NCBI GenBank assembly: GCA_964017065.1 | Contig: OZ024783.1 | Location: forward strand, 17,955,752-18,019,751 | Length of the DNA: 64,000 bases | DNA from: Haliclona indistincta | Lineage: Eukaryota; Porifera; Demospongiae; Haplosclerida; Chalinidae | Direction of reading: 5' to 3' | Shown here: positions 738-59,879 of the stretch, in pieces | Numbering within the stretch: the first letter of the stretch is position 1 | How the letters are laid out: each line of letters starts with the position of its first letter | The notes under the pieces: generated by a model | Told to the model about the DNA's origin: nothing | Database searches by the model: none | Seen by the model: the letters and a program-made list of their open reading frames with translations, nothing else | Program-made: the position numbers and the translations under genes

Positions 738-1681
738 TCTCTCTCTCTTTCTCTCTCCCTCTCTCCCACCATTCTTCCCTCCCTCCCTCCCTCCCTCCCT
801 CCCTCCCTCCCTCCCTCCCTCTCTCTCTCTCTCTCTCTAGTTCATCTCCTAGTATTGATATAGTAAGGATACACAGTGTGTGTCGTGCTGTGGAGGATAG
901 TAACTTCACTCACTCAATCTCCAACAAACAACTGCTCTTCCACTCATCACTACCTCAGAACTTTGTCGGCATACTCTCCCGGTTAGCAATCTGATTGGTT
1001 GATCACTCTTTACTAAAACTTGTTATAATCCGTCTGTAACCCAAAATCGTAATGTTTTGTGGTTGCAGTGGTATGTTGCTGCCGAAGATAGTTGTGGACG
1101 ATTTTGGAGGGAGGCGGTCAGACCCAGGCATGCTAGGGGGCGGGATTTACTTTGCCAGGTCAGCAAGCCTGTCCAGCAAGTTCTCTAAACAAGGCAAGGC
1201 TGGTAACGGCACACGACTCATGCTGGTCAACCAAGTTGCACTCGGTAAAGTCAAGGTGAGAATTGTTGTTTCCATGTTTTTAGTCATAGTTTTTTTGGTT
1301 TGTTGAAAGTATGATGTATGGTTTGTTTCGTGTGTTTTAGGAGTTCACTAGTTTTCAGAAGAAGCTCACTGCTCCACCTGAAGGCTACAACAGTGTGAAA
1401 GGGGTTAAAACATCCGAGGAGGAACCATCAGATTTCAAGGTACAGTAATTGCTGCACAAAACCATTTGACCTTACAATACAATAGGTATTGAATAACGTT
1501 ATTCATCGTGTGGTATTGTAGGACAATGAGTATGTTGTATACTCGACCAGTCAGCAGAGAATGAGGTATCTAGTGGAGTTCAACCTGCCAGGAGACCAGG
1601 TCACCATGTCTGATGAAGAGCAAGAGAAGGAGCCATTAGAGGAGAGAGATGAGGAGGAAGAGAGCTCTGGATCAAGTGAAG
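1..1681 (+). CDS. PARP4: PARP4-like exons 1-6: PARP regulatory/catalytic domain
   Basis: This block makes ~293 residues. Exons 1-3 carry the end of the helical regulatory region and the start of the ART fold. The H-Y-E triad of active poly/mono-ADP-ribosyltransferases can be read: His in LLFHSS (exon 3), Tyr in GGGIYFAR (exon 4), Glu in NEYVVY (exon 6). The stretch GMLLPKIV (exon 4) and the close of exon 6 (RMRYLVEF) are typical of PARP4. NAD+ is the expected substrate. Exon 6 ends in an acidic, low-complexity linker. Introns 1 and 2 are nearly pure CT tracts. All three catalytic residues are present, so the domain is probably active; this is inferred from motifs only. Confidence 0.88.
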
Positions 1682-16600: not shown

Positions 16601-18584
16601 CTGTGAGTCTGGTGACAATGATGACACTTGTTGTGAATCTATACTTTACTCTAATGATACACTATGGGATGGACAGCAATGTCCTGGTTTTGAGGCTCCC
16701 TGCTGTAGTCACCCCAACATGCCATGGTTCAACAAGACACTCAGTGAGACCACGACTGAGGACATTGAACTGAGACTGTGCGGTGACCAATCTGCTACCA
16801 ATGAAGACACTCCTCTTGAAGTTATTGAACTGTTTATACGCTAGCTATTCAGCTCTTGCAATGAAAAATTTTTTTAAATAATAATAAATATTAATGTGCG
16901 CCGCTATGTGAGACAGAAATATCCTCGTACCGATGCACTTTTGGGGAGGTTTGGGTACAAGGTTTTTTAACGTACCTTAATGTTACTATTATTAGCAGGT
17001 ACTAACATCATTAATTTTTATCAAAAAATGTATGATTGCATCATAATTGCTAAAAAATAGTACACGCAAATAGTGTTACATAGTTTAGATATTTTAAGGA
17101 AACACTAAATTAGTACTTGCCAATTCAATTTTGTACCTGCCAATAAAAAGTCTGAAGTGGTTGAAAAGATAAGTGCTTCGATTGTGGTTGGTGTACTCTG
17201 CACGTGGACATCAGACTCTCCTCTGTTTCGGAAGCTTTTGTGCTAATATGATTGCTTCTTTCTAATCTACCTGTTGGTCTTTATCATTTCAGTATGTCCT
17301 CAAATAGAACATTGATTCTTCCCAGGATGTTGTCAATCACTCTCTATATCTCTCTCACTCCAGGATGTGTTCACAGTGAGTGTTGGTAATCTTCCTCCAG
17401 GAGCTAGTGTCCTCATTAAGATCACATACGTTGCTGAGCTCATAGCTGATGGTGAGAACATCGTCTTCTCTCTACCAGGCTCGGTAGCTCCATGGAAGAA
17501 AGAATCAGCTCTTGATCAAACCACACAGAGCGATGTTGAAAAGGTCAAAGTTCACGAGGATTGCGCCAACACTCTTTCTGTTCAAATATCAATTGAAATG
17601 CCGTTTCCAATAAAGACTATTGAGAGTCCAACACATAAGATTAAACTGAAGAAGACTTCGACAATGGCTACTGTTGAGTTGTGTGAAGAGGCGGAGCTGG
17701 GGGCGGGATTTCAGCTGATGATAGGACTGGCTGAGATACACGTACCACGCATGTGGGTTGAGGAGGACAATACAGGACACCACGTGAGTAGAGAGATAGA
17801 CATCACGACTGTAACTATAGCTAGTTAGAGACCTTGCCCTGTTCACCTCTTGCCCAAGTCTATGCATACATGCAAGCCGTGGGCAAGACCTGATTGTTCT
17901 TCTGTGTAGGCTTGTATGCTGACCTTCTATCCTGAATTCGAGGCCGACAGTATCACTGAGAACGAGATTGTGCTCATGTTGGACCTGTCCAATTCAATGA
18001 AGGTTAGTGAGGAAACAAACAAGTGCGTGAATGGGGTGAGCAAGCAAGGGATGAGTAGTGAGTGAGGGAGGGAGGAATCAGGGAGAAATGAGTGAGTGAA
18101 TGAGCAGGCAAGTTGACGAGTAACTGAACGAGTGAGTGAGTGAGTGAGTGAGAGGGTGAGTGTGTTGGTAAGTGGGCACGGAGCGAGCTAGCTTGATAAT
18201 GCTGTCTTTAATCTGTGTAGGGAGAGTCCTTGTCATCAGCTAAGAAGATAGTTCTTCTTCTGCTTCATCATCTTCCTCCAAAGACACTCTTCAACATTAT
18301 CACATTTGGAGCAGGTCTGTACAGCATGTACAGTACAGCATTATGATAGTACCATATCTGATATCTCACTGTGCTTGAATTGTCTGTTTACAGGTTTCCA
18401 GTGTCTGTTTCCAATGAGCATGCCCCTCAATAATGAGACACTAACTACAGCTCAAAAGTTTGTTCAGGTGGGAACATGTATTATTATAATTTTTATTATA
18501 TATTTTTGTATTATTTATCAAGTGTACTTGTGCGCTGCATTTTGCAATAAAATTTAACATGTGCATTTACATAAAGAGTGTCAT

Positions 18585-18637
<53 letters not shown>

Positions 18638-18910
18638 AGGGTTGTGAGGCTAACTTGGGTAGCACTGATCTCTGGCGTCCTCTCCACTCACTCCTGTTGC
18701 TCTCTCCTAGCTCTAGTGGGAGTGGTCAAGACACACTCCCTCCTCGTAGCGTATTCGTCATCACTGATGGTCACATGACAGAGGAGGGCCCCACCCTCTC
18801 CGCTATCAGGACTGGTACAAAGACGTCACGAGTGTTCACATTCGGAGTCAGGTAATGAATAATGTACTCACGGTATGTTTACAGGATTACAATTACTCTC
18901 TTTCTCTCTC

Positions 18911-18954
<44 letters not shown>

Positions 18955-21398
18955 TCTCTCTCTCCTGTCTCTTCTAGTTCCACTGCTAATCGTCATTTCT
19001 TGCGGTCCATGGCTAGGATCGGTGGAGGGTGTAGTGAGTTCTTTGATACTCAGAAGAAGTCTCAATGGCAGGGCAAGGTGAAGGACCAGTTATCAAAGGC
19101 ATACCAACCAGCCCTGACAGATGTGAGAGTGGAATGGAGACAACACGATGATAATGCACCCACTCCTGTACAGGTAAGACAAGATAAGAATAAATAAAAC
19201 ATTTTTTTCATTTTCTCTATAGGCTCCTAAAGAGCTAGTTTCGTTGTTCAGTGGATCGAGACAGGTTGTGTACGGGTTCGTCCCGTACTGTAAACAGGTT
19301 TGTGTTTATTGAATACTCTCTATTATTGCGTAATGCATTCGTCTGGTTGCAAGATGCATAATTATTGTCTCAGTCACTCACTCACACACTCAATCAATCA
19401 CTCACTCACTCACTTGCACACACACTCACCCACTCACTCACTCTTTCTGTCTTACTATAGGCTACCTTGATGGCGTACATTGGTAGGAAGGAAATACAGA
19501 CAATGGTGTCCACATCAGACCTAGCTATGACTAAAGGACGAGTGAGTCTCTTTACCACACAGTACTTTCATATCACCCATAGCAAGAATATTTGCGTCAT
19601 TTTAAAAAGAGCCATATTTTCTACTTGCAGTGAATTTATTATTTCCTGTAGACACTTCACCAACTGACTGCTCGAGCTCTCATTAGGGACTGGGCTGAGG
19701 GGTCTCTCAATATTGATAGAACCCAACACGAGGTACATCAGCCCATGTCACATGATGCTATCACTAACTGCACTGCACTAGGTGATCAAACGTGACATGA
19801 AGTCATTCATTATCAACACCAGCAAGGAGTACACCATTGTATCTCAGTTCACCAGCTTTGTAGCTATTGAGAAAAGAGACAAGGTAAACAACTATAGCTC
19901 ATACATTAGATATTGTGTCTCAGCTGCCTTAGTTTATCGTGAAGATATTTCGCTTTAATTTTCCAATGTTTTCGAATTTTTTTGTTTTTCTCTCTCTTAT
20001 TTTGTATTTTTCTTAATAGGATGAAAAGTTTGACACACACCAAGGCCCTTCTATTGATGAGCTTGTTGCTAAGGAGACGACTGATAAACTCGCCTACATG
20101 GGCTGGGAGGTGGATCAGGGTGCTGACCCTGTCAAGGTGGGTGTGGTCAGTACAAGACTGACTAAGGTTTTCTAAGGGGGTCGTAAAATTTAAAGGTGAT
20201 AGGGTTATAGTTTGAGTTACACTTGGGCAAGGCCGTAAGGGGTGATCTAGAAGTGAACGGCTCCTATTTTGGGCAACAACGAATGCTTTGGCACATGTCA
20301 GAAACTTACAATACATTTTCCACTAGTATACATGGCCGGTGCTTTTATTTCAGTACAGTAAAGGTCATAGTTGCACCTCAAAATCACGCTAGTACCATCA
20401 ACACTATACAATAGCAATGTATATCATGTATACTGTACATGTTAAAATCAAGAAGAGTTCTACGAATTGGATCAAGCCTACACTCGCATTTTGTAGTGTG
20501 CAGTTACATGGCTCGAATTCAATGTAGTAGCAGTGTTTTGTGAAATCTTGATCTTATTAATCTGTGTTATAGATCGCTGCTCGTAATGTGGAGGACACCC
20601 TCAGCTCAATGGCGGTTGTGGTCGACAAGAGTGAGATAGAGCAGACCTATCAGAAGGTGTGGGAGGAGTCTGCTGGAGTACTGGACCCCGCCCATCCTAT
20701 CAGAACTAAGGTAAAGTAACAAAATTTAACATAACATATTTTCTTGAAGAAATACTGGACATTAATTTTATTCAAAATAAAAAATTGTTTTTTCACTAGA
20801 AAAAAATAAATCTCTATTAGTAGTAAAATACTCACATCCGACATTCGAATCAATATTCCTCGCATCTAGAGACCGACTGCTCATTGAGTTCAGCCATTTG
20901 AATATGTTGCTTAGTGCTTACTAATTTCAGCCAGGCATTATTAATTTTATTAAAGCTCGGAGTCTATTCTAGATATTATGGTACATAATCACGTCTGTGC
21001 ATGTTCAATTTTTTTAGATTTACCAAATACTTGTATTTTGTTGAGTGACATTTCTATTTTGAACTGACAATATACCATCAAATTTCCACATTTTTCCCTC
21101 TTCATCAGCTTCTTGGTAAGATGGTGCATAATCTTCTAGCCAGTGATAAGATCGATGAGGCTGACACACTAGTATCTAGTACTGAGAGTGATCTGTGTCT
21201 GGTGTCATCTCTAGAGGGCAATGAGCAGCTCAGAGAGGTTGAGAAGCTACGAACAGCGTGAGTTTACGTAACAGTACTGTATGTTATACTGATCTCTGAT
21301 TTTATTGCTGAGAGCAAGCCAAAAATCTTCATCTTTACATGCCATTGATAATTAATGTCAAAATGGGGTGTTTTTTGCACAATTTAATACCCCTCCCA

Positions 21399-21452
<54 letters not shown>

Positions 21453-24400
21453 TGTAGTATTAGTGAAGTTCAAGCTAAGATCAGACAACAGATGATGCAG
21501 AAGGTAATTCTGATTTTTCCTTCGAAAGAAACATATTAAATTTCAATCATTTTCTTCACAGCAAGCGGAAGAAGAACGGAAACTAACAAAGAGATTGGTA
21601 TGTGTTGCATGTCACAGCATTGGTTGTAAATGTTAATTATTTTTACGAACAACAAGTTATTAAAAAGCGTATTTTTATCTTTTAGGAAGTTTTTGCAGAA
21701 AGACGTTATAGAGAGCGCCGTGCAATGTAAGTCAAGTCTTACTGTACCAATATTAAGTTTCACCAACCTCCTCACTACTAACGTCAGCTTGTACTGTAGA
21801 GCTGTTGTCTTTTGCACTTGTTAAATTTTGTGAATAAAGGACCAAATAGCCCAAAATAAAATCTGAAAATTTTGGTATTCATTCAACTTGCAATTGCCCC
21901 GTCGGCAATACAGAATTTTTCTTGTTGATGTTTTGGGTGGTCGAGTGCGTTCTCTGTTGGCTATGGTTATCAACCATGCTACAGTCAAATATCCATGTGT
22001 CCTTCTCTCTCTCTATTCTATAGTATGTCTGCTCCAAGGGATCTTACAGCTACTGAGTTGGATAAGGTATAGAATGATCAAGTTCATTTATAATTATCAT
22101 ACATATATTTTGTTACAGCGTGTTGCAGCTCTAAAATTAGAATTCGGAGATAATTTGGTATGTTTAATTTTAGATGCGTCCATTACCATTTTTTTCAAAT
22201 GTATTTTGTTAACACAAAAAAGTGAAGGCATCTCGAAGGCAATCGCTGTACTGCATCTCGAAACCCTGCACCAAAATGCTACTGGACATTTACCGCCTGC
22301 CTTGCATGCCTGCATGACATGATATATCTATGTTGAGGGCATTATCAAGAGTAAGATTATGCATTTTTGAGCTTCTAGAGTTTTCTTGTATACAATCAGT
22401 CTTCGAACCTGCTTGTTCTGTATACTGAAAACATAGAAATGTGTTGTTCGATCGTAAAATTAACCGATTTAGCCAATTACTCAGGGGAACGCCCCCAAAA
22501 AACGCGAAATTACTGAATACAGCAATCTGAGAGCAAAATTCGCGAACTATAAACGCCATCAAAAATAATTGCAACGTTTAAGGTAAAAAGACAATCGCAC
22601 TCGTCTGCCTCGTGTGAAAATTACAATACGAAACTGGCACCATATTTGACACGTTAAAGAATACTATACATAACGATAGCTCCTCTTTTAAACAACCGGA
22701 CATTTAAATTTTTCAATGGGCTTTTTGCTATCTCTGCATAGTAGAGTAAGGACATCATTTTAACCACTTAATGCAACTGGTTGCTCACTTCTTTTCTTTA
22801 TTGAACCTGGTGCTTAGTAGAAGAGATACAATAGAGTCTAGTATGACGATCTCTTGTTTTTTTTAGGAATCTGAGTTAGCTAAAGAAGAGAAAAAAATTG
22901 GGTGAGTATCATTTTGTGCATGTTATTTCTGTCACGTGTATGTATTGCTCAGCTATGAGCTGAAGTCTAAATAGATTATAATAGTATGCTTGTACATGCG
23001 GAGTATGAATATGCACACGTTAAGTAAGAAAGTTTTAATAAAAAACTAAGAAGTATAGAAGTATGACGCTTGCAAAAGTATGCAGTAGAAATGTATAATG
23101 TTAGAGATATATGTGATAACTCATTTTCACACATGAGTAGCCGTCATCTTAGTTCACTGTCATCTCTACGTATCATCAATGATTATTATTAACCGTGACT
23201 TTCTTTTATAGAAGATTTTCCTTGTTTCGCAACCAAATGGATGATGACGACGAGGGAGATGATGATTACTCCGCTGCTGTGATTGATATTGGAATGGACA
23301 CTGTGAAGGTACCATCTATATACCTTATAATATTTATTATGAACGTGCTCAAATACAAGCTCAATTGCAATGGTTTTAAATGCAAGCACAGTCAATGCAT
23401 TCGACAAAATTAATTGTGATTTTTTTAATTTTTCACTTTTTAAAACCAAACGTTTTGGGTTTAGAATTTAACTATCATAATTATTATGTTATGTATAAGT
23501 TGTGATTTCTTGATACCTGTATTTTACCCGCACTTAACTGTGCATTGAAGCCAGTAGTGTCAGCTCTATAATAGTTTTGATTCCAATAATATTGTCGACT
23601 AGTTAGATCTTCTAATCCCGTGTAGGCTGGTATGGCTGGTCAGGATGCACCATCAGCTGTGTTCCCTGCTCTAGTGGGACGACCAAGACATCAGGTATAT
23701 TATACATTTGTACATCTATACATTTTTTTAATTTATTTTTTCTCCTTCTATTCTCAGGGTGTCATGGTGGGCATGGGTCAGAAAGACTCATACATTGGAG
23801 ATGAGGCTAAATCAAAGAGAGGCATCCTTACATTGAAGAGCCCGTTTGGACGAGTTAGTAGACTTGCAGTTCAGAGTCAGGGAGGTCGTAGCGTTAGATT
23901 TATAGCTGAAGGTAAGACTGAATGACACACGAAGCTATGCTATAATAGTACATTTCTTGTTTTCTCAACCTCATACATGTTATTTGCCTTGTGTAATTTT
24001 TTTCTCAATTGTTTTAACTGTTATAAAGTTTTATGCATGTTTATACAGTATAGTGCACAAGATGATGAATGTCATACCGTATAGCGGGAAATTTTCGTGG
24101 GAGAAAATTTTCGCGAATGCGCGAGATAGAGCATTTCGCTAATAATATTTTCGCGAATCAGCACTATTGCCCTATCTTTGTCAACAGAAAACAAGACATT
24201 CGCGGATAATATTTTCGCGAATTGCCTGTAATTCGCGAAATTCGCGAAAATTTTCTCCCGCGAAACTTTCCCGCTATACGGTAATTACTTTATTCAAATT
24301 TACTACCTGTATTGTAATAATAGTGTGCTTATCTTAATTCTATAGCGGCTAAGACACAGCCATTGCAACGTGATGGAAGATCGCTAGGGAAAGATGAACC

Positions 24401-27400
24401 AGTGCCTGTTGACTTGATGCCTACATCAGCATCTACTAGAAAGTCTATACCAAAGAAGAAAAAGAGACTACAAACTGGTATGTGTTGATAATCATGAAAT
24501 CTTTCATAATGAACGAATTTCACGAACCCTCGGCGTTTGAGCACCGTTGCAAAAATATTGTAGAGTTAACGTTAGCACTAAGCTCCCTAGTTGGTGATTG
24601 CAGCAGGAGTTTGCAGCTGCTTAGCTTGTAGGCTGTAGCTATATTGAAACTGCACTGCTAACCAGAAGACAGCAAAATTAATGCTGACCACTTTCTAGGC
24701 GTGTCATGTGGGCGTGATCAGGCATGAACCGCACGTGAGTAGGTAGCCATTGCATGCATTGCTAGCTGTAGGCTTTTCCTGAGATATCTACGCACACTCA
24801 GATCTGTCCTGCTGTTCAGATGTAGTCTATAAGTACCTAAAAAGACAACTGTGGGCGCTTTTGTTGTCAGAGACGTCCAAGATGGCTGGCAAGTAAGGTG
24901 AGCCAGCCATAACTCGAGAACGAAAACATTTTAGCTAAATCCACGAGTCACATTGCAAGCCATTGTCGTGCTAAGCCTGTTCATACCTTTACCGAGTTTC
25001 AGAAGTGAGTGATGGTCTCTGTAGCTCGATGGACAGAACGAACGAACGAGTGAGTGAATGAACGACAAACCAAGTACCGTAACCCTCGCGCATGCGCCGA
25101 GGGTTAATTATGATTACGTATACATAGCTTCATAAAATTTAATTCATAAAAATTTAATTAATTAATATTACTTACTGCTTATCACCTACATGTATTTTTG
25201 TCTGACAATGATAACTGCATGTTATTATAACTTCATAATTTTATTATTGAAGTTCGCTTTTAAAGTTCCTAGTTTTGCAAGCATTATTACAAAGTAATAA
25301 TAATTATTATTGTCTAAATTTTGATGGGTCCAATTGTTCATTTCAGAATGCACGTGAAGTAGACCAGCTCTCACTAATTATTTTTTCTCTTGTGAGGTGC
25401 GTTACAAACTAAAGGCGCTTCTGTTAATGATCTTCTCATCCCACGTTTACACTGCCAGCACTGCGCACCAAAAGTGGTAGTGCAAACGTGGAAAAAATTG
25501 GTGCTGTGCTGAGCCAGGGTAACGGTTTTGACCCGGTATCAAAAGCGTGCCGGCACGGCTCGACACCAGTGTTTAGCACACAGTGCAACGATACAGTGCC
25601 TTGCTCGCTGTCCAAATAGTACAGTTTTAGAGGTACACTGCTGTTGCAATTGTGTTTTGGCTCAAACACAAGATATCTGCCTGTAGCAGTCAGGGAAACT
25701 CGGAGAAGGCAGCAAGAAAGCCCTACACTTGGCCTGTATATGTACGTGTATGGACGTCGTTAGTGCGTGCACACGTGCTTGTCGTGTATCTGGGTGTGTA
25801 CCTGCCATGTTCCATTGTCCTGGAGCTCTGAGAAGAGCTAGTAAATGACAGAGAAATTAAGCAACCCAAAAGACACTGCTGTCGCCATGTTATTTTTGCA
25901 ACGCCCAGTTACCTTAAGGGTGCAGACCTTAACAACCATTAACTTATTCAGGAATGTACAAGTTGGACATTGTTACACACCACAAATGATATTCACATGT
26001 TTATACAAGCACATTAACAATACTAATAAGTGACAGTAGCCAGGCAAGATCACAAACAATGCATTCCTCGATAAAACTCTGTCTGTGGCCTTCAGAATAG
26101 ACCCAAACTTGGATATATGACTATTAGCGACCAGATAAAGACGTTAACTTAGAGTTTTTTTTAATAAACTCCCTCTGAGTAGGAAAACCACGAGGTATGC
26201 AGCTCATAATCGCACTTCCAAGCACAATACACGAAAAAGCTCTAAGTTAATGCCTTCGCCTTGTTGAAGTACGTATATATCCACAATCTGAAGTTCTACT
26301 GCCTGAGTGAACGAAAGTTTTATTAGCCTAAAGCGTTGTATCTAGCCGCGCCCGTCACGTTTCCGTCTGGCACTTTCAGCGCTCATAGTTTGCAATGTGT
26401 ACAGCCTTCGCCAGTCTTGTAGCATAGGTCTTTGGTTTCTTGGAATATCAGCAGTAGTTTCTGAGATACAGTCCCCTAGCAACCAGCCAAGAATACATGC
26501 GTGGGTGTGACACTGCACCCTTAAGGTGACTATTATTGGCAGGTACAAAATTTACCGGTTTTTAAAAATAATGAATTTAGCGGGTATTAATTTTAGCGTT
26601 TCGGTATTCAAGTAATTAAAAAAAACATTAAGCAATCAACACCATCAATTGAATTATTGTGTAGCACAATGTCCAATCCAGTTTACTGAAAGAGTCTTTA
26701 TTAGATTGAGCCAATGCAATAATTCCATCACGAATCTCTGACAATGAGTCAGACCTTGCATCAAGTAGTTCACGATAGTTACAATACTGTTACTGGCGAC
26801 ACTACTGCTAGTAGTGCTAGCAAGCTAGCTGTTGCATGCAAACGTACGCGTGGTTAGTTTCTAAATTACTATCTAAATATTGGCGGGTAGTTAATTTAGC
26901 GAAAATATTATAGGTCAATCGCTAAAATTCGCTAAATTAAGTACCTGCTAACAATAGTCGCCTTAAGGTGGCGGGTTATGAATATTAATGAGTTAAATTC
27001 TTTTGTTTGTAACTTTTGACAGAAACTATTTTGCTTTTTTCTCGAGTCCTGAGTTATCGTCGACGAACGAAGAATGTTTGCTAGTGACCCGCGCTTTAGA
27101 ATTCATAAAAAATCTACAAGAGCAAAATTCAAAGAAAGGCCTCGTCATTCCCTCGGCAGTGTCCTTGGCTTGAAGTACAGCGCTTTATTGTAGACGTGCT
27201 ATTGCTGCACGTCGAGAATTTTGGTTCGAAAAATTGCTACAGCGTTCCAGAGATCGCGCGCACTTCTCGGTTTGCAGATCTTGTTGAAAGTCGCTAGTGA
27301 AGCATGGACGCACGTCAGCATGCTCCATAACAAGTAGTGTACTCTGTAATAATTTCTGTCAAAAGTTACAAACAAAAGAATTTAACTCATTAATATTCAT

Positions 27401-30400
27401 ATCGAACGATAACCTGCCACCTTAAGGTAACTGGAAGTGTCCGCTTTCTTGATTGATTATTGGTTCGGCAAAACAGCGTGCAGTGTAAATACAGCCACCA
27501 AAGTGATCAGTAAGGCACCAGCTGGGCTCCAGCATGGCGCTTTGTGGCAGTGTAAATGTGGTATTATACACTTTTGTAACCTAATATTAATGGACTGTCT
27601 TTCTATACTTATATTAGTACAATATGGCGGTACTGATTTAATGAAAGAGTTGATGGACCAGCCTATGGAAGCTATGTTAGCAGAGAATGAACTTGATAAT
27701 GTGAAGTTTCAAGACCAGTCGTTGCTTGCTGATTTTGAATTAACAGAAAAAGGTTGGTGCAAGCTGTCTTGGTTTGAAAATGTATTTACGGTAAACTTCT
27801 TACGCACACACATACAGTAACAGTCACTCTAACCTCTAGCAGCACTGATAAATGGATGCAAGGACCTGAAAGTTCCCTGATAGCTAAACGTGACTCAGGC
27901 TTTCTTCAAACTACAGGTGAAATCTCACCTGCTTACACAGCCACTTCACCAAGAAGCTATCGATCCCTGTCTTCACGTGCTTCACAGGAATCTAATGCAT
28001 ATGGTGAGGATCTGGTGATGCAAACTAGACCTACTTCTAGAGAAAAATATAATTATTCTAAATGGGATTCTATCAGCTTGAGTTCAGATGAGGGCGATGC
28101 ATACTCAATGCTGAAAGAGCAGGGACAGCAATCGCTTGATATCTTAAGTGCCGAGATGATATCAGGTACACACATGAGATTGCTGCTCAAAAACTGTAAT
28201 ATTTATAGTACGCAATACTTAAATCTTTTAAAGTCAGTCGTGCAAAGTCTGCGACACGTATTTTTGCTGCACAATAGCACAAAATTTGCATAAGTACCAT
28301 TGTGTCAATGCCAATTATGTAGCAATATACTAAAGCATTTTATAGATCAAATTTATTTCATTTCACAGAATCTGTTGCTGTTGATGATCTGCTCTCATGG
28401 GACGATTTTGAAAAGGATGACATTTCAACTAACAGCATCGTTTCAGCTCCGCAAGCACAGCGTCGCTCATCAGAAGTATATAAAACATTTGGCCGTGCAA
28501 AGGGACATTCAGGCTCTATTCCTCAGCAACAACAACAATCATCAGTGCTGTCTGCCTCTTCACCAGCACCTCCTCCTCCGCCTGCTCTACCAGTATCGTC
28601 CAAAGCACCAGTACCTATGCCTCTATTCAGGGGAAAGGTGTTACAAGTGTTTGGTTCTACTGAAGGAGCGCAGACGTTCTCCTTTAGTACTGAAGCTGCT
28701 TTTGGTTCGAAAATTTCAGCTATGTCAATTGAAGAACCTCGGCTATCTGTAAGAAATGAGCTTGTTGCATGTGTGTGTATTATAATTATTGAAGTGCTGT
28801 CGCGTTTCTTTGAAATTTTTCATTATCATAAAGTTTGTTAGCTATTCCAATTATTGTATGGTTGTTTGTGTGTTACTAGAGTAATACATTTTAGGCTTTA
28901 AAATTTTGACAATCTCTTGTATTATCTGCCTAAAATGTAGATTGCAGTCTTGTCAACTGTTTCTGTATTTTGTTACTTTTCCTATTATAGTTAAAAAGTG
29001 GTCCGGTTTGGAAGGTCCGTGGAGGTCCACTTCCTCCTCCTCCTAAAGGTGGAGCCCCACCGCCTCCTCCTGTTCCTCCTAAAGCTCAAGGTCCGCCTCT
29101 TCCTCCCGGAGCCTCACTTCCTCCTAGACCTCCTGCTAGAGCCTCATCTATTAGAGCCGCACCTCCTACTGGAGGCAAGCCACCTCCTCCTGGAGCTCCT
29201 TCGAGAGCCGCACCTCCTACTGGAGGCGTGCCACCTCCTCCTCCTCCTCCAGTTATATTTAATAAGAAAGCGGTTTCTAAATCTGCTCGAAATGTTGCTA
29301 GACGATCTACCATAGAACGTGCCCCAAGTCAGGAAATGGAGCAAGGTAATAAATTTACTTTTCTATATCAGTATACACACACTATAATTATTATGTTTTC
29401 TTGGTTGGTTAAGTTCATACCTGTGTACTTCTCTTTACTTCATATTGATCTTGAATTGTTTGTTACAGATGAAGTAAGGTTTGCCCCTGCCGCTATCAAG
29501 ACTAAACGTGTCGACTCCAAAAAAGCTGAAAAGCCAATGCCACGTTCAAAGTTTTTCAATATGCAGGAAGGTAAGGTTCTGCATTACAGTTACAGCATAG
29601 ATGCTTGATTACTGGTTATATTTAATGGTTTTCTAGTCTCAAATTAAGACTTTGTATTCAATTTTTTTCCAGCAGAAAAAGCTGCTCCGCCCCCTCCACC
29701 TCCCCCACCACCTGCCATGAAGCCGCTTTTTCAGGAAAAGAAAGTCAAAGAGGACAAGAAGCTAGTTACTGGTCGAGGAGCCCTACTGCAGGGAATAAGA
29801 TCAGTGAGTAACTCACCACATGTTGCATTGCTGTACAATCAGTATACCGGTGATATCACTCTTTGTGCACATATTTTGATGTTTTTTGATCAATAATAAT
29901 ATATCATTTTGTAGTGTATGTCACTTGATGCACGAATTGTGTACTTCTACTAATGGAGTAGTTCAGTAGTTTGTTGTGCTTTATAATCATGCTGTGCTTA
30001 TGTGACTCACCTAATCACAGGGAACTCAACTGAAGAGTGTGTCTAAATCACAACCGGCCCAGAAGGAAGAGATTGCTGAATCCCTAGCACAGGCTCTAGG
30101 TAATTACACACTGTTTATTGTTTGTTTACAATTCAAAGTGCATTTCACATGTGCCGTCTATGTTTGACTAATGCGGATTTTCGTGCACAAAGCATGATTC
30201 ATAAAATCACTGCCTGCTTTATGCGCACTAGAGCTCTATTGAAAAGTTCTGCGAGCACTCAGACGGGTCACACGAAAATCTATCTGCGCTTTGAGTGTGC
30301 TAGTGTCTGCCGCGTTTTTACTTGTATGGCAATGGACCCCCGGCTTCAAATTTCGCATCAGCCCTGTATCACATGGTGATCTCTTACTATAGCTTATAGA

Positions 30401-31151
30401 TCAGCATCAATAAGAACAGGAGGAGGCGGCTGGGATGGTAGTGATGATGATGATGATTTCAGTGACAATAGCTGTGCTAGCTCATGGGACGAATATTATG
30501 AAGATGGGGAAGAGGTATATGAAGAAGCGGCAGGGACAAAGCTTCAAGAAGAAAACGAGGAGGAAGAAGATGAGGAAATGGGATTTGGTTTGTTTGATTC
30601 TGAGGAAGAATCAGAAAAAACAAAGGTATGTACTATTGACCAGCAATGATAAATTCTTGAAAGTGTTTTGTTGTGCTGCAAGTTTACGGGCTATTGCAAT
30701 TTTGAATGTACAGTACCGCTCACGAGTAAGTGTACTCAAACCCGCGGGCTAACCGCGCGTAACTCGGGGGTGCCCGCGGGTCCGTGAACGTATACCCGCT
30801 GCCCGCACCACACTAACCCGCGGCCCTCATGCAGCCTTGCATGCACTCGCGACCCGCTGGATAGCTAGGCAGACTCACGTTGTCGTTGTGTGGCTTTTGC
30901 GAGCATATACAGTGCTCGCACGTATCCGCACCAGCGCGTGATGCACTCTGTATTCGCATCTACTCGCGGTTAATGATACACGGTTCCGCGGGCAAGACAA
31001 AATTACCCCTGGGTTGCCTGCGAGTCTCCCGCGGGTGTTGGTCCACTTACTCGTGAGCGGTACTGTAAATATGTGTTCGTGCTCCATACAGGAAGAAGAT
31101 GAGAACAAGCGTCCTCAATTGTCAGATGGTGTCATACCTGTTCTATTTGCA
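1..31151 (+). CDS. PARP4: PARP4-like (vault poly-ADP-ribose polymerase) gene, 41 exons, partial at both ends
   Basis: Multi-exon gene with phase-consistent GT-AG splicing. Exons: 1-131, 423-583, 841-981, 1069-1255, 1341-1439, 1522-1681, 1977-2107, 2497-2581, 3361-3494, 17364-17783, 17910-18002, 18221-18314, 18394-18467, 18640-18851, 18978-19173, 19223-19297, 19461-19541, 19652-19732, 19782-19883, 20020-20136, 20573-20710, 21109-21257, 21458-21503, 21562-21597, 21686-21726, 22024-22066, 22119-22157, 22867-22901, 23212-23308, 23626-23694, 23758-23911, 24346-24477, 27618-27756, 27843-28165, 28369-28748, 28991-29345, 29469-29570, 29673-29803, 30021-30099, 30405-30625, 31092-31151. About 1,847 codons lie in the window. 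The order PARP catalytic, VIT, VWA, long tail is that of PARP4, the ADP-ribosyltransferase of vault particles. The N-terminal part (BRCT in the vertebrate protein) would lie before base 1. Exon 1 probably continues upstream; exon 41 runs into the N gap. The actin-like insert and WH2/acidic tail are not part of the family as I know it. Confidence 0.88.
1977..17783 (+). CDS. PARP4: PARP4-like exons 7-10: VIT domain, split by a 13.9-kb intron
   Basis: Exons 7, 8, 9 and 10 encode a vault inter-alpha-trypsin (VIT) domain of the kind always paired with VWA in PARP4, VWA5A and ITIH proteins. Visible hallmarks are AKYVFPLGD (exon 8), a V-C-G-F-E-A core followed by [13 protein letters not shown] and GHGAYL (exon 9), and [10 protein letters not shown] plus ITYVAEL (exon 10). 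Phases match across 2581/3361 (phase 1) and 3494/17364 (phase 0). The intron between exons 9 and 10 interrupts the domain right after a D-E-E-T-P stretch and houses a cluster of unrelated genes. Intron 8 (2582-3360) also contains an inverted-repeat element. Confidence 0.88.
2633..3245. mobile_element. inverted-repeat element in intron 8
   Basis: The ends GCATGTACATTAACCCTTTA (2633) and its near-complement ending at 3245 form ~27-bp terminal inverted repeats. The interior has GC-rich runs of G and C and no coding frame. It lies wholly inside intron 8 of the PARP4-like gene. Non-autonomous DNA transposon or MITE; family not identified. Confidence 0.6.
3630..3785. mobile_element. MITE with CAGCGGTTTCA ends, TA target duplication
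   Basis: A 156-bp element starting CAGCGGTTTCACTAC and ending TGAAACCGCTG, flanked by TA on both sides (3628-3629, 3786-3787). A second member of the same family lies at about 44,268-44,397 in the TUBGCP4 region. TA duplication suggests a Tc1/mariner-type mobiliser. Confidence 0.7.
3880..4145 (+). repeat. upstream segment of the nested-gene unit, repeated at 14,400-14,700
   Basis: About 265 bp beginning ACAGGAAACATGCGTGTT and ending near TTGACACCATTTGGTGTC is clearly related to 14,410-14,700. It marks the boundary of the duplicated unit inside intron 9 and suggests that the array grew by segmental duplication. No coding potential seen. Confidence 0.6.
4940..5055. mobile_element. 116-bp near-perfect palindromic MITE in the leader of fibrinogen-like gene 1
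   Basis: The element runs from CACTGCAAAAACTGATTTG to its complement ending GCAGTG, with a small central loop around TCTATAGA. It is flanked by TG on both sides. The other array members read GATACTGTTAAGACA without interruption here, so this is an insertion into the 5' leader, 11 bp before the ATG. Confidence 0.85.
5067..6032 (+). CDS. nested gene 1: secreted cysteine-rich fibrinogen-like protein, 321 aa
   Basis: Intronless ORF, start at ATG 5067 ([10 protein letters not shown]), the codon shared by all copies. Residues ~1-24 form a hydrophobic signal peptide ([11 protein letters not shown]). Residues ~70-130 resemble the N-terminal half of a fibrinogen-related domain: [22 protein letters not shown], then GGWMRV. 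The rest is a cysteine-rich region with [18 protein letters not shown] and a WDGQQCPG...CCTHPNMPW block, and no canonical fibrinogen calcium site. N-glycosylation sequons (NMS, NDT) suggest secretion or surface display. It lies on the same strand as, and inside intron 9 of, the PARP4-like gene. Family function unknown; fibrinogen-like lectins or contactin-associated proteins are the nearest resemblance. Confidence 0.85.
   Translation: MAANLLCVLFCYYWLLLAGGVVSGFTPVTYPARVSSECGQYDPLQDEKLSEALMQAYQQFIPGRSCQDILHRFPSAPSGYYQITAPSGSLVQVYCDVEGSNCRGEGGWMRVVYVNMSQSGATCPQGLTQRTFSGLTLCGRNSAGCQSTVFSTLGLAYSQVCGQLRGYQFRAPDAFHYSLFNPSVSIDNVYVDGASITYGSAPRKHIWTYAAGRNLLTGSSRCPCNTGSVLHPPPFVGSDYYCETGDNDVTCCESILFSNDTLWDGQQCPGLEAPCCTHPNMPWFKKTLSETTTEDIELRVCATQSSSSEDTPLELIELFVL
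6890..7269 (+). promoter_or_regulatory. conserved 5' flank of nested gene 2 (array-wide promoter candidate)
   Basis: A block with landmarks TTTTTATGAAGTGTGATT, CTACTACGTACATCA, GTACAGCAACTGACTT, AGAGAACATCTT, TTTGATTCATTTGTGTG and GTTAAGACAAATGG precedes each copy. Versions are seen at about 4,350-5,066, 6,890-7,269, 8,980-9,257 and 15,630-15,878, and gene-less versions at 8,530-8,820 and 12,890-13,161. Conservation beyond the coding region suggests that it contains the promoter and leader, although recent duplication alone could explain it. Confidence 0.5.
7270..8261 (+). pseudogene. nested gene 2: fibrinogen-like family member with frameshift
   Basis: It is collinear with nested genes 1, 3 and 4 from ATG 7270 to the stop at 8261. 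Near 7,725-7,740 the sequence GGATGTC joins directly to GTTCTCC. Compared with gene 4 this lacks the ten bases between those two words (and has one extra GGA upstream), so the first frame ends at 7749. The second half continues in another frame ([13 protein letters not shown]). Signal peptide and all other blocks are intact, so the lesion is recent, or is an assembly or allelic difference. No splice signals would rescue it. Confidence 0.82.
8520..8960 (+). pseudogene. orphan promoter copy without a gene
   Basis: From about 8,530 to 8,820 the array promoter block is present up to TTTGATTCATTTGTGTGG. The expected leader and ATG are then replaced by unrelated sequence (TACGTATTTTAATGACTATAAGC onward in short pieces). 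Another full promoter block starts at ~8,980 and leads into nested gene 3. This looks like an unequal duplication that copied only the flank. Confidence 0.5.
9258..10250 (+). CDS. nested gene 3: secreted cysteine-rich fibrinogen-like protein, 330 aa
   Basis: Intact intronless ORF from ATG 9258 to TAG at 10250. It has the same layout as nested gene 1: signal peptide ([11 protein letters not shown]), fibrinogen-like N-terminal block ([23 protein letters not shown]), [25 protein letters not shown] and the C-terminal WDGQQCPG...SHPNMPW block. It differs in a 10-residue insertion (FPSCNPPRN) near residue 60, shared with gene 2, and in the variable loops after GYQ and after [10 protein letters not shown]. 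The third position of the GGWMRV block is changed (GWTRV). Variation is concentrated in these loops. Confidence 0.86.
   Translation: MAANLLCVLFCYYCLLLAGGVVSGFTPVTYPARVSSECGQYDPLQDEQLTEALGQAHQQLGFPSCNPPRNRSCQEILHCFPSAPSGYYQITAPNGSLVQVYCDMEGTNCGGKRGWTRVAYVNMSQSGATCPQGLTQQTLSGLTLCGRIDSGSCQSTVFSTLGLVYSQVCGQLQGYQLGSPDAFYSYLSTPSVITIENVYVDGASITYGSAPRKHIWTYAAGLNLLSGSSRCPCNTGSNFNSPPFVGSDYYCETGDNDDTCCESKLYSNDTLWDGQQCPGIEAPCCSHPNMPWFNKTLSEATTEDIELRVCSFQIFSSGSTPLELIELFVL
10922..11572. mobile_element. 651-bp foldback element with a minisatellite inside each arm
   Basis: Arms of ~220 bp (10,922-11,141 and 11,353-11,572) are inverted copies. Each begins GTAAAAAAGTTTTAATAAA and contains 4-5 tandem ~30-bp units (CTTGCAAAAGTAAAGGAACA...). 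The centre has three tandem ~65-bp units around CAACCGTCAATTACTTCATC. Long ORFs on both strands (repeating K-V-K-E-Q-D-G-x-M-L-A) come from the minisatellite and are not genes. Related short remnants with the CATCCCTACAT terminus are at ~12,780-12,885 and 23,030-23,180. Confidence 0.8.
12471..12516. repeat. (GAA)n microsatellite
   Basis: About 15 AGA/GAA units after a GCGCTAGGCTTGTC motif that also precedes the GAAA expansion at 39,431 and the short GAAAGAAG tract at 62,677, so it is a decayed copy of the same repeat family. Confidence 0.8.
12890..13515 (+). pseudogene. gutted fibrinogen-like copy: promoter and last ~30 codons only
   Basis: Positions 12,890-13,161 match the array promoter (TTTTTATGAAGTGTGATT, CTACTACGTACATCA, CTCTATTAATAGT). 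At 13,167 an AACCCTCGGCG-type repeat begins and runs to ~13,423. Then 13,426-13,515 resumes in the last exon sequence, reading [10 protein letters not shown] ... [11 protein letters not shown] and a stop. The ~290 codons between are missing. Repeat-mediated deletion is the simplest reading. Confidence 0.75.
15068..15225. mobile_element. half of a CATCCCTACATCAG-type MITE
   Basis: The segment from CTCTGATGTAGGGATGCATG to TGATTTCGTTAGAAATA matches the right half of the complete copy at 38,449-38,835 (landmarks GTTACCATTCCATG, GTGGACCAGTGGTAGATTTC). The left half is absent, so this is a truncated copy. Confidence 0.7.
15301..15480. mobile_element. 180-bp palindromic MITE
   Basis: Arms of 39 bp, GTTGCTATTGCTCTTCTTTA at 15,301 and its exact complement ending at 15,480, surround an AT-rich centre. 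No coding capacity. It lies between the decayed copy and nested gene 4 in intron 9. Confidence 0.8.
15879..16844 (+). CDS. nested gene 4: secreted cysteine-rich fibrinogen-like protein, 321 aa
   Basis: Intact intronless ORF, ATG 15879. Signal peptide, fibrinogen-like N-terminal half and cysteine-rich C-terminal half are as in genes 1 and 3. It lacks the GSL triplet before VQVYCDMEG (reads APNVQVYCD) and has [16 protein letters not shown]. The C-terminal variable segment is [20 protein letters not shown]. It is the member nearest to exon 10 of the host gene (519 bp upstream of it). As for the others, the product is predicted to be secreted, with function unknown. Confidence 0.85.
   Translation: MAANLLCVLFCYHWLLLAGGVVSGFTSVTYPARVSSECGQYDPLQDEQLTEALMQAYQQFSLNRSCQEILRHFPSAPSGYYQITAPNVQVYCDMEGSNCGGEGGWMRMAYVNMSQSGATCPQGLIQRTLSGLTLCGGMVTGGGCQSTVFSTLGLAYSQVCGQLRGYQYGTPEAFHSYLVGPSSVNIDRTYVDGASITYGSAPRKHIWTYAAARNLLSGSTTCPCNTGNVRNPPPFVGSDYYCESGDNDDTCCESILYSNDTLWDGQQCPGFEAPCCSHPNMPWFNKTLSETTTEDIELRLCGDQSATNEDTPLEVIELFIR
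17910..18851 (+). CDS. PARP4: PARP4-like exons 11-14: von Willebrand factor A domain
   Basis: The four exons encode the first part of a VWA domain. [13 protein letters not shown] contains the DxSxS metal-ion-dependent adhesion motif, and VFVITDGHM is the later strand with the conserved Asp. In PARP4 the VIT-VWA module is thought to be used in vault assembly or protein contacts rather than catalysis. Intron 11 (18003-18220) contains GAGT-type simple repeats and intron 13 ends in a CT microsatellite used as the polypyrimidine tract. The domain continues into exon 15. Confidence 0.87.
18978..22901 (+). CDS. PARP4: PARP4-like exons 15-28: end of VWA and post-VWA helical region
   Basis: Fourteen exons of 35-196 nt, all phase-consistent, encode about 390 residues. 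Exon 15 completes the VWA fold ([13 protein letters not shown]). Exons 16-22 resemble the post-VWA region of PARP4/VWA5 proteins, with [14 protein letters not shown]...[17 protein letters not shown] (exon 19) and a later dimerisation-like helical part. Exons 23-28 (46, 36, 41, 43, 39 and 35 nt) encode charged helices rich in Glu, Lys and Arg. Such very short exons are easy to miss with automatic gene prediction. Several introns carry AT-rich repeat remnants, for example 22,158-22,866 and 19,884-20,019. Confidence 0.78.
23212..23911 (+). CDS. PARP4-like exons 29-31: embedded actin N-terminal segment (actin residues ~1-68)
   Basis: Exons 29 (23212-23308), 30 (23626-23694) and 31 (23758-23911) encode a stretch that aligns end to end with the actin N-terminus, beginning at an acidic start ([10 protein letters not shown]) and ending at SKRGILTLK. 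Over the ~50 residues from AG(M)AG to TLK I count seven differences from conserved cytoplasmic actin. The DNase-I-binding loop ([11 protein letters not shown]) is unchanged. The ATP phosphate loop is altered: D and G of the D-N-G are kept, but the following S-G is M-D, so nucleotide binding is unlikely. The exon 30/31 junction falls exactly at actin codons 41/42, a known actin intron site. After TLK the sequence is unrelated to actin. The reading frame runs from exon 28 into exon 32, so the segment is part of the larger protein. Confidence 0.85.
24077..24281. mobile_element. 205-bp MITE, CCGTATAGCG ends, TA duplication (intron 31)
   Basis: The element starts CCGTATAGCGGGAAATTTTC and ends CGCTATACGG, flanked by TA (24,075-76 and 24,282-83). 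The interior is built from repeated TTCGCGAA words. A relative with the same ends but a different, TTGGCGG-type interior is at 49,485-49,686. Confidence 0.85.
24346..28165 (+). CDS. PARP4: PARP4-like exons 32-34: linker region
   Basis: Exon 32 (24346-24477) encodes a basic linker ending in a lysine-rich run (IPKKKKRL), a possible nuclear localisation signal. Exon 33 (27618-27756) uses donor GTGCAA at 27757 and is acidic/helical. Exon 34 (27843-28165) is Ser/Thr rich. A tandem NAG acceptor at 27838-27842 could add or drop one residue. Intron 32 (24,478-27,617) is 3.1 kb and is almost entirely made of inverted-repeat elements listed separately. Exon 33 was found by phase matching (phase 1 in, phase 2 out). 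No domain recognised. Confidence 0.68.
24525..25105. mobile_element. AACCCTCGGCG inverted-repeat element (intron 32)
   Basis: The ends AACCCTCGGCG (24,525) and CGCCGAGGGTT (to 25,105) are inverted repeats. The right ~270 bp match, in reverse orientation, the piece at 13,167-13,423 that replaced a fibrinogen-like gene body (landmarks ATGGCTTGCAATGTGACTCG in complement and ACAGAACGAACG-type repeats). Non-autonomous DNA element. Confidence 0.65.
25918..26520. mobile_element. TTAA-flanked MITE 1 (piggyBac-like)
   Basis: Begins GGGTGCAG after TTAA (25,914-25,917) and ends CTGCACCC before TTAA (26,521-26,524). TTAA duplication without extra bases is characteristic of piggyBac-type transposases. 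No ORF of its own. Confidence 0.7.
26525..26962. mobile_element. TTAA-flanked MITE 2 (piggyBac-like)
   Basis: Begins GGTGACTATTATTGGCAGGT and ends ACCTGCTAACAATAGTCGCC, between TTAA at 26,521-26,524 and 26,963-26,966. It shares each flanking TTAA with a neighbouring element. A solitary match to the first word (GTTACTATTATTAGCAGGTA) appears at 16,982, in intron 9. Confidence 0.78.
26967..27421. mobile_element. TTAA-flanked MITE 3 (piggyBac-like)
   Basis: Begins GGTGGCGGGTTATGAATATT and ends AACCTGCCACC, between TTAA at 26,963-26,966 and 27,422-27,425. Long inverted repeats (>60 bp) include AGTTAAATTCTTTTGTTTGT and its complement. Confidence 0.78.
28369..29570 (+). CDS. PARP4: PARP4-like exons 35-37: proline-rich region
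   Basis: Exon 35 begins with an acidic WDDF segment, has a glutamine run and then a short proline run (APPPPPAL). It then has a conserved-looking patch ([18 protein letters not shown]). Exon 36 is dominated by repeated PPPP and GGxPPPP motifs and ends in a basic [10 protein letters not shown] stretch. Exon 37 is short and basic. Polyproline runs of this kind are ligands for profilin, SH3 or EVH1 domains, which fits the WH2 motif that follows. Vertebrate PARP4 also has a proline-rich region here, so the proline content alone is not novel. Confidence 0.78.
29673..31151 (+). CDS. PARP4: PARP4-like exons 38-41: polyproline, WH2 and acidic tail, cut by gap
   Basis: Exon 38 opens with nine consecutive prolines and ends in [10 protein letters not shown]; exon 39 continues [10 protein letters not shown]. 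Together this is a WH2 (WASP-homology 2) G-actin-binding motif, with the amphipathic helix (ALLQGI) and the LKSV variant of the LKKT motif, split by a phase-0 intron at 29,804-30,020. Exons 39-40 then give an amphipathic segment (ESLAQALASIR) and a long acidic tract with tryptophans ([12 protein letters not shown] and [12 protein letters not shown]). That order matches the VCA tail of Arp2/3 activators. Exon 40 uses acceptor 30,403-30,404; the AG a few bases earlier would create a stop. Exon 41 (31092-31151) starts a [10 protein letters not shown] sequence and disappears into Ns. WH2 is firm; the nucleation function is inference. Confidence 0.8.
30711..31065. mobile_element. 355-bp GC-rich MITE in intron 40, TA duplication
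   Basis: Ends CAGTACCGCTCACGAGTAAG and its complement (to 31,065), flanked by TA. The interior is rich in CCCGCG and CGAGTGC words, far more GC than the surrounding introns. It occupies nearly the whole intron between exons 40 and 41. Confidence 0.82.
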
Positions 31152-31174
31152 NNNNNNNNNNNNNNNNNNNNNNN
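31152..31174. other. assembly gap (23 Ns) inside the PARP4-like gene
   Basis: A run of 23 N follows an open exon. The sequence after it is unrelated repeat DNA in another context, so true distance and orientation to the next genes are uncertain. The 3' exons of the PARP4-like gene (vault/MVP-interaction end in vertebrates) are not seen on the other side. Confidence 0.95.
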
Positions 31175-59744: not shown

Positions 59745-59879
59745 GCTTGTTATCTTGGTTGCAACTGAGAGACTACGTACTCCTCGATTGTACATCGATT
59801 TATATATCAAATTCAGTCGATATACCTAGTATTGTATATGGTGTCCGAGAGTTGCGTTACGTATCCGCATTATCTTAAT

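Follow-up and report, generated by a model that had tools for sequence, protein, structure and literature searches.

The window analysed here, a stretch of 64,000 nucleotides from the sponge Haliclona indistincta (contig OZ024783.1, positions 17,955,752 to 18,019,751), carries on its forward strand a gene that is, judged by its predicted domains, a sponge PARP4 (vault PARP) gene. Three predicted in-frame exons within this genuine PARP4 gene were confirmed to encode actin residues ~6-70 (Table 1). The stitched segment matched 128 distinct sequences in the PDB (best E 2.3e-29, chain residues 3-73), the best 60 of these 128 being all actins, and Pfam Actin (PF00022) gave 46.3 bits against a cut-off of 27 over profile positions 2-65 of 410. 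All three exons have AG/GT borders, and the borders within the actin numbering fall at 18/19 and 41/42. The sequence of the D-loop and subdomain 2 is present, with the D-loop (39-51) identical to that of actin, while the ATP loop reads DIGMDTVK where actin has DNGSGMCK, so that the phosphate loop DNGSG is replaced by DIGMD. The complete two-domain actin ATPase fold is absent, only about residues 6-70 being found in the segment. A preliminary description of this DNA had proposed actin-derived coding exons inside a PARP4-like gene, with an intact D-loop and a degraded phosphate loop, and the PDB and Pfam matches and the alignment described below bear this out. Its extent of residues ~1-68 needs correction: the three exons are phase-consistent, but the match runs from ~6 to about 70, after which exon 23758-23911 no longer encodes actin.

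Compared with the source genome's own actin, the best 50-residue stretch of the segment is identical at 43 positions, exactly the figure estimated earlier by eye, and a longer stretch at 44/52. Over the whole segment 75% of residues are identical, and codon positions 1, 2 and 3 agree at fractions of 0.75, 0.86 and 0.38. At fourfold sites 10/28 agree, with 7.0 expected from base make-up. Since synonymous sites are near chance while the protein is held, the segment is an old fragment under purifying selection. A unique recent insertion was rejected, as relatives carry the segment and the fourfold sites are near chance; a retrocopy or pseudogene was rejected on the in-frame spliced exons and the conservation. 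The border at 41/42, previously read as a sign of capture as genomic exons, reveals little about the mode of capture because a single exon spans both 18/19 and 41/42 in the two closest actin genes of the source genome.

The host gene was traced by tblastn with P0121, a predicted Amphimedon queenslandica protein (LOC100633591 isoform X2), whose BRCT, PARP, VIT and VWA parts aligned across the 10 kb upstream of the window and window positions 27-20151. The N-terminal BRCT lies in the DNA 5' of the window, which aligns with P0121 47-114 (Pfam places the P0121 BRCT at 5-85), and the PARP catalytic domain is present as an alignment-level match of 857-1255 to P0121 435-538. A tandem of VIT and VWA follows, VWA being detected by Pfam, VIT partially by Pfam, and both by tblastn, with 77% identity to P0121 across the region. 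In the source genome (144 Mb, 46 contigs), the P0121 matches scored (19/338 candidates) comprised this locus, a distant VIT-VWA cluster on contig C7 and actin exons, so the window holds the only PARP4 locus among them. The C7 cluster consists of ten closely spaced rows with 32-36% identity to PARP4 (G000:C7:5385402-5753427) and is probably made up of VWA5-like genes. With a core identity of 77% the window gene cannot be LOC100633591 itself; because of this identity, and because the window is the sole PARP4 locus among the scored matches, P0121 was regarded as this gene's orthologue from a different sponge. Repeats of the major vault protein (MVP) were found on contigs C9 and C2 of the source genome.

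Exons were predicted by dynamic programming with hand-set splice weights and codon bias. In this gene model the three actin exons share one open chain with PARP4 exons 17326-22901 at their 5' side and with exon 24346-24477 at their 3' side. The model gives low scores to the small exons of 21257-22867 and leaves 24477-27843 without defined exons. The chain finder is permissive, the chain having also taken in unrelated single-exon intron genes and a gene at 33223, and weight was therefore placed on relatives, that is, on annotated proteins with the segment and PARP4 in one piece.

Beyond the PARP4 core, the tail encoded in the window contains, besides the actin segment, proline-rich sequence, a WH2-like motif, a ribosomal P-stalk-like peptide and weak remnants resembling 14-3-3 and the Pol II C-terminal domain (CTD). 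The WH2-like motif scored 22.0 bits with Pfam, below the cut-off of 23.1, and matched N-WASP chains at E 1.9e-5 (a sum of three weak stretches) and 0.002. The peptide DEEMGFGLFD matched ribosomal P1 in the PDB at E 0.037, and the P-stalk motif recurs in 15/110 other PARP4 tails and in none of their shuffles.

The putative vault anchor meets an assembly gap. By eye, the frame at 31092-31151 (QLSDGVIPVLFA) resembles the start of the MVP-interacting domain, and it ends in a 23-N gap. A hidden Markov model (HMM) search covering the window and 10 kb of flanking DNA at each end found no MVP-interacting domain. For the remainder of the domain, the best matches lie on the minus strand at G000:C1:18108080 and 18149969, about 120 and 160 kb off (39% identity, E 3e-13 each), with a third, weak match on C3 (E 0.04). 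That these matches sit far away on the opposite strand suggests a scaffold mis-join at the gap 31152-31174. In the Amphimedon relative the anchor is homologous to that of the human protein, the C-terminus of P0121 matching, at E 0.0039, a PDB entry for the end of human PARP4 that interacts with MVP. A frame at 26997-27170, considered as the MVP-interacting domain, found no support and was dropped.

Table 1. Features of the PARP4 gene in the window and the basis of each assignment.
Feature	Coordinates	Strand	Basis
Part of PARP catalytic domain (LPKIVVDDFGGRRSDPGMLGGGIYFARSASLS)	1079..1174	+	P0121 tblastn; BRCT end of the gene upstream of window
Initial part of VIT domain, in two exons (about 2497-2581, 3361-3517)	2497..3517	+	Gene model; P0121 tblastn
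VIT end and ITIH-like part, beyond 13.8 kb intron	17326..17783	+	Pfam VIT E 9e-4 (partial, below cut-off); gene model; tblastn
VWA domain and subsequent PARP4 core exons	17910..20136	+	Pfam VWA_3 E 2e-16; gene model; tblastn
Exon with degenerate 14-3-3-like stretch (YQKVWEESAGVLDPAHPIRTK)	20573..20710	+	Weak: HMM of 14 PARP4 14-3-3 segments, 10.8 bits, E 2e-4, five-sequence search
Exon linking PARP4 core to actin segment	22867..22901	+	Gene model, splice borders; exons between 21257 and 22867 weakly supported
Actin segment exon 1: acidic leader preceding actin about 6-18, which has lost ATP-loop residues	23212..23308	+	PDB and Pfam matches, alignment, borders
Actin segment exon 2: actin 19-41	23626..23694	+	PDB matches, alignment, borders
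Actin segment exon 3: actin from 42 to about 70, covering most of D-loop and the next helix, followed by non-actin linker	23758..23911	+	PDB matches, alignment, borders
Exon after actin segment, basic linker	24346..24477	+	Gene model
Degenerate Pol II CTD-like stretch SPAYTATSPRSYRSL	27925..27969	+	By eye; P0121 has YSPTSPS
Proline-rich exons; final part is first half of WH2-like motif (GRGALLQGIRS, 29771-29803)	28369..29803	+	Gene model
WH2-like motif, second half (GTQLKSV), and further residues	30021..30099	+	Pfam WH2; N-WASP chains
Acidic exon with ribosomal P-stalk-like peptide DEEMGFGLFD (30569-30598)	30420..30625	+	P1 match; motif count
Probable first exon of MVP-interacting domain (EEDENKRPQLSDGVIPVLFA)	31092..31151	+	By eye; truncated by assembly gap 31152-31174

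The 13.8 kb intron that splits VIT (3517-17326) holds four similar single-exon frames with MAANLL (about 5037-6029, 7180-8258, which is broken, 9231-10247 and 15852-16841). Another frame of this type lies upstream of the window, and by eye the set resembles a tandem secreted-protein family. Repeat arrays coding for VKEQDGMMLAK-like units on both strands occupy 10876-11609, with similar repeats in L028. Beyond the gap, related frames (MANEQLTNL..., SAERYLETIKDSIPLLLTKLKEYEKERESERN...), coiled-coil-like by eye, at 32511-33450, 54621-55172, 57685-58137 and 63179-64000 may represent a local gene family or mobile element, and a distinct long frame lies on the minus strand at 58413-59825.

A protein search with the segment (candidate length 0.55-1.75 of 1334 residues, plain actins dropped) gave 156 matches, of which the best 120 were used. 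Among the matches listed are many tandem or fused full actins, together with a set that has the N-terminal segment only. The latter includes PARP4-like proteins of Ephydatia, Corticium, Dysidea, Halichondria, Oscarella, Hydractinia and Bolinopsis (two copies) as well as other protein types. The same insert had been proposed as a check for the PARP4 of other sponges, and the first five of these genera have it. In all, the segment sits in the same PARP4 tail in other sponges, cnidarians, a ctenophore, molluscs, hemichordates, echinoderms and the protist Capsaspora. The earlier statement that no PARP with an actin module was known does not stand, as these carriers and the published mention of such domains (PMC4245714) demonstrate. 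Since the Capsaspora PARP4 (P0211) carries the segment, its capture looks older than animals.

The segments were aligned in 51 rows, 45 of them distinct, including PARP4s from the PARP4 search described below; P0071 and P0118 were excluded by hand. The alignment includes the fungal tandem actin P0043, several oyster rows that are near-copies, and P0057, P0060, P0061, P0076, P0097, P0112, P0116 and P0120, which are not full PARP4s. Across the 45 distinct segments the D-loop is 94% actin-identical (542/575 positions), compared with 75% for residues 19-32, 70% for 33-38, 64% for 52-62, 47% for the ATP loop (11-18) and 46% for 63-72. Gly42 is kept in 44/44 segments and Lys50 in 43/44, Asn12 in 1/44 and Gly15 in 0/44. 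The D-loop is thus the best-kept part of the segment, and these values point to purifying selection centred on it. A tree built from 42 rows over 65 columns places all 8 actins to the same side of a single branch (96/80), with one label change; 17/33 inner branches are open, and 11/45 distinct segments, mostly near-copies or partial, were left out (P0043, P0057, P0173, P0178, P0171, P0182, P0158, P0192, P0097, P0208 and P0132). Re-capture from actin in each lineage is not supported, as the segments do not nest among the 8 actins over these 65 columns. The segment most similar to that of the window is from P0121, with 86% identity over the same columns. Whether or not the immune reading given below holds, a piece of ~65 residues that keeps the D-loop and loses ATP-loop residues in relatives as distant as sponges and Capsaspora demands a functional explanation.

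The tails carry more than actin. A PARP4 search gave 999 matches at E 1e-20 or better among 8000 candidates scored, and the best 120 of these 999 were used. In the proteins of this search and of the segment search, whatever follows the VIT-VWA core was taken as the tail. With a minimum length of 100 residues, the 122 cores found gave 110 tails, isoforms, partial models and close relatives included. Six tail-derived fragments used as phmmer queries (E < 1e-3) were found in these 110 tails as follows: actin 38, ubiquitin 25, 14-3-3 14, Hsp70 12, VAMP 7 and calmodulin-like 4. The same queries against the cores of these proteins gave 0, 0, 1, 0, 0 and 0, the lone 14-3-3 match being at P0143 1303-1385, where the core/tail cut is probably late, and reversed queries gave no matches. 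Short motifs were counted against residue shuffles of each tail: P-stalk 15 vs 0, CTD 17 vs 0.12, phenylalanine-glycine (FG) 9 vs 0, WH2 6 vs 0 and, more rarely, histone H3 tail 1 vs 0 and actin C-terminus 1 vs 0.06. In the cores, CTD occurred once and four other motifs tested, including P-stalk, were at 0.

Counting actin, ubiquitin, 14-3-3, Hsp70, VAMP, calmodulin-like, P-stalk, Pol II CTD, WH2, FG and H3 as kinds (actin C-terminus uncounted), 27 of the 110 tails have none, 40 have one, 31 two, 4 three, 6 four and 2 five. Vertebrates and non-vertebrates were split by the species names in the PARP4 search, with P0205 placed where we presume it to belong. At least one kind is found in 82/94 non-vertebrate tails, at least two in 43/94 and at least three in 12/94; among vertebrate tails 1/16 has a fragment, FG-like only. 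In the 12 tails with at least three kinds the usual order is 14-3-3 or ubiquitin, actin, P-stalk or CTD, and WH2 late, with the exception of Anneissia, where CTD and P-stalk stand ahead of actin. Precomputed Pfam lists independently name actin, ubiquitin, 14-3-3, Hsp70, synaptobrevin and EF-hands, and more rarely ribosomal P protein and WH2. Further accessions in them we take to be SNF7, PDZ, Rpb1-CTD and FG-Nup entries.

Single fragments were matched directly: Dysidea ubiquitin to single ubiquitin chains (about E 3e-33 and weaker), Oscarella to the C-terminal part of a 14-3-3 zeta chain (E 2e-18), separate Dreissena fragments to the H3 tail (E 2e-5) and to Hsp70 (95.8 bits), Dysidea to synaptobrevin (E 5e-13) and Pinctada to EF-hands (E 7e-34), which we labelled "calmodulin-like" by eye. 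The ubiquitin fragments are best kept at 37-49 (0.67) and 65-76 (0.73), compared with 0.40-0.46 elsewhere. In 9/24 distinct ubiquitin fragments a proline directly follows the terminal Gly-Gly, which should hinder ubiquitin cleavage; a literature search on deubiquitinase (DUB)-resistant fusions gave no match.

The actin segment and the vault anchor can also stand alone, since proteins without PARP join both. P0060, P0062, P0112 and P0116 have the actin segment and the MVP-interacting domain (HMM E 3e-28 to 6e-35, with a model that may itself include these four rows), and P0097 and P0099 are of the same type by precomputed Pfam. The P-stalk-like peptide is present in P0060 and P0116, and the C-terminal domain of this type resembles by eye the PARP4 of the glass sponge Oopsacas (P0206). 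In addition, actin was found in 7 of the best 120 of 358 DUF4062-NACHT-TPR proteins (P0055, P0100, P0105, P0109, P0117, P0241 and P0244, one of them from Balamuthia), at or near the C-terminus, and 6/7 end like actin. Both proteins of this type that were scanned with Pfam, P0055 and P0109, contain nearly the whole of actin. Gly15 is lost in P0055, P0100, P0105 and P0117 and kept in P0109. Among 18 fused or segment actins viewed, the pattern was readable in 12, with Gly15 lost in 8/12 and kept in 4/12.

Actin, ubiquitin, 14-3-3, P-stalk, SNARE, Hsp70, EF-hand, CTD and histone-tail sequences share little beyond very high conservation and frequent hijacking in eukaryotic cells. In the fragments, signs of the proteins' own activity are lost (Gly15 of actin) and contact surfaces are kept (the D-loop; ubiquitin 37-49 and 65-76). 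From this mix of fragments and their kept surfaces, together with the published selection on the mammalian linker, the NADase of TEP1, the DUF4062-actin proteins and the PARP-less anchor proteins, we favour, with about even confidence, the reading that the PARP4 tail may be a vault-anchored array of host-target decoys, a view built on pattern and literature. Each fragment would show pathogen effectors, toxins and viral proteins their usual host surface (for actin, D-loop 39-51), and the bait would sit on a protein unable to do the host protein's own job. The MVP-interacting domain would tether the baits to the vault or inside it, so that intruders captured there would be sequestered and perhaps ADP-ribosylated by the PARP domain; we infer the binding, the sequestration and the ADP-ribosylation alike. 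The decoy array fits the positive selection published for the same mammalian PARP4 linker. Nucleotidyl cyclase toxins are described as being switched on by actin (PMC8595890), and P-stalk proteins as being bound by ricin and Shiga toxins (PMC11946510).

Several observations weigh against the decoy array. The window gene runs into an assembly gap before its vault anchor. The isolated segment spans roughly one fifth of actin, and residues outside it are targets of some toxins: crosslinking toxins are reported to join Lys50 to Glu270, the latter outside the segment (PMC3448709), and Thr148, also outside, is a reported toxin target (PMC9266650). Many bilaterian segments are shorter and end near residue 58, and an AlphaFold model of the segment-bearing P0112 (mean predicted local distance difference test score, pLDDT, 33; six-row alignment) is uninformative on the fold. 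We had predicted that ubiquitin fragments would keep all toxin sites, and they do not, Lys63 being kept in 1/24 and Thr66 in 9/24. Some tail fragments are degenerate, and 12/94 non-vertebrate and 15/16 vertebrate tails have no recognised fragment. Finally, the counts are not independent, given the isoforms and close relatives among the 110 tails, and because the kinds were picked after viewing eight tails they describe the array and do not test a preset hypothesis.

The strongest rival, which we nevertheless consider unlikely, is a scaffold in which pathogens play no part and the fragments bring endogenous partners of actin, ubiquitin, 14-3-3 and similar proteins to the vault, either as cargo or as substrates of PARP4. 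The array is equally compatible with it, and the kept surfaces (ubiquitin 37-49 and the C-terminus, the actin D-loop) presumably serve endogenous partners too. However, tail composition is strongly lineage-dependent, the fragments being nearly absent from the 16 vertebrate tails, and the homologous mammalian linker is reported to be positively selected (PMC4038475), which is unusual for housekeeping contacts.

Close to the role suggested in the preliminary description, in which the D-loop mimics a pointed-end contact, is a vault-tethered actin regulator, with the D-loop segment, proline-rich stretch, WH2-like motif and acidic tail acting as a nucleator or end-binder. The same order of these four elements in the window and P0121 agrees with it, as do WH2 scores just under the Pfam cut-off of 23.1 in both (22.0 and 21.4 bits) and of 32.6 bits in Oscarella P0052, and a cytoskeletal link was also proposed by Perina et al. 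2014 (PMC4245714). Pointed-end mimicry by the D-loop may occur, but it would leave the other core-protein fragments in the tails of relatives unexplained. The WH2 pattern occurs in 6/110 tails compared with 38/110 for actin. Moreover, a pure actin regulator is hard to hold because the tails of relatives also carry ubiquitin, 14-3-3, Hsp70, calmodulin-like, VAMP, CTD and P-stalk fragments, which it leaves unexplained, and we judge it improbable.

Neutral exon shuffling, by which conserved exons entered a tolerant disordered tail and now drift, would account for the varying length and order of the tails and for the degenerate fragments. It is contradicted for actin by near-chance fourfold sites at 75% residue identity, and a D-loop kept at 94% over 45 segments with Gly15 lost in 44/44 indicates long purifying selection on one loop, so that we regard it as very improbable. 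An artefact, whether a fused gene prediction, contamination or an overlap of PARP4 with an actin pseudogene, could draw on the assembly gap inside the gene and on our own gene model, and is hardly credible given actin exons in frame in the window and a segment that recurs, without the rest of actin, in PARP4 tails of many independent genomes from sponges to Capsaspora, which contradicts it for the family.

More broadly, and more tentatively than the decoy array itself, we suggest that the vault PARP4 may ancestrally have been an immune trap. Linker baits on the vault wall (actin D-loop, non-cleavable-looking ubiquitin, 14-3-3, P-stalk, Pol II CTD, SNARE, Hsp70, calmodulin-like and histone-tail pieces) would capture and ADP-ribosylate toxins, effectors and viral proteins, and vertebrates would have swapped these baits for a fast-evolving linker. 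If true, this would give the vault a function. If the tail is such a bait array, a role of the vault could be tested with each fragment in turn, and the array would hint at which effectors marine animals encounter.

Among known systems, actin itself (PF00022) is homologous to the window segment over residues about 6-70, with an identical D-loop, and differs in that about 80% of the fold is absent from the segment and Gly15 of the ATP loop is lost. The window tail also resembles, by eye, the VCA tails of the N-WASP type in its poly-proline, WH2-like motif and acidic end with a tryptophan, although its WH2 is just under the Pfam cut-off and the Pfam scan, over the pieces it covered, showed none of the other WASP domains. 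Plant NLR immune receptors carry integrated decoys, which are inactive homologues of host targets inside an immune-type protein. A built-in homologue that by sequence appears inactive is seen here in the truncation and the ATP-loop loss of the segment, and several other host fragments occur in relatives. PARP4 differs in joining several fragments in one vault enzyme, compared with one domain per plant receptor, and the likeness is known from sequence alone; if it holds, the integrated-decoy idea would grow from single plant-receptor domains to multi-bait arrays in animals and their unicellular relatives.

The vault is described as a huge, abundant and ancient particle of unknown function, and a preprint reports that TEP1, another vault protein, has a TIR-like NADase domain whose family protects bacteria from phages, and that DUF4062 is a TIR-like immune NADase also acting in the vault (PMC13174449). 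For PARP4 itself, Perina et al. 2014 (PMC4245714) noted that some PARP4-like proteins, from amoebae, Capsaspora, the choanoflagellate Salpingoeca, lancelet and urchin among others, carry 14-3-3, ubiquitin-related and actin or actin-binding domains, and suggested signalling and cytoskeletal links. These are the same family with partly the same appended domains as the tails here; the relevant section of that paper is without the array, the segment borders, the D-loop constraint, or the P-stalk, CTD, Hsp70, VAMP, calmodulin-like and H3 fragments. Daugherty et al. 2014 (PMC4038475) found recurrent positive selection in the disordered linker of mammalian PARP4 (exon 30, >300 residues), which lies at the homologous position between vWA and the MVP-binding domain, and proposed that it recognises pathogen factors and may sequester or recruit viral proteins to vaults. 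Host-protein mimicry does not appear in the passages of that paper on the linker, and the vertebrate linkers are nearly fragment-free (1/16, FG-like). No report of host-protein mimics in PARP4 was found in the titles and abstract openings of the top-ranked papers in a mainly open-access literature, and the relevant parts of PMC10450202 and PMC13174449 do not mention them. Because this earlier literature, in the parts available, gives only the fusions and the mammalian linker proposal, the domain fusions of PARP4 are partly known, and the array, its constraint and its reading as bait appear to be new.

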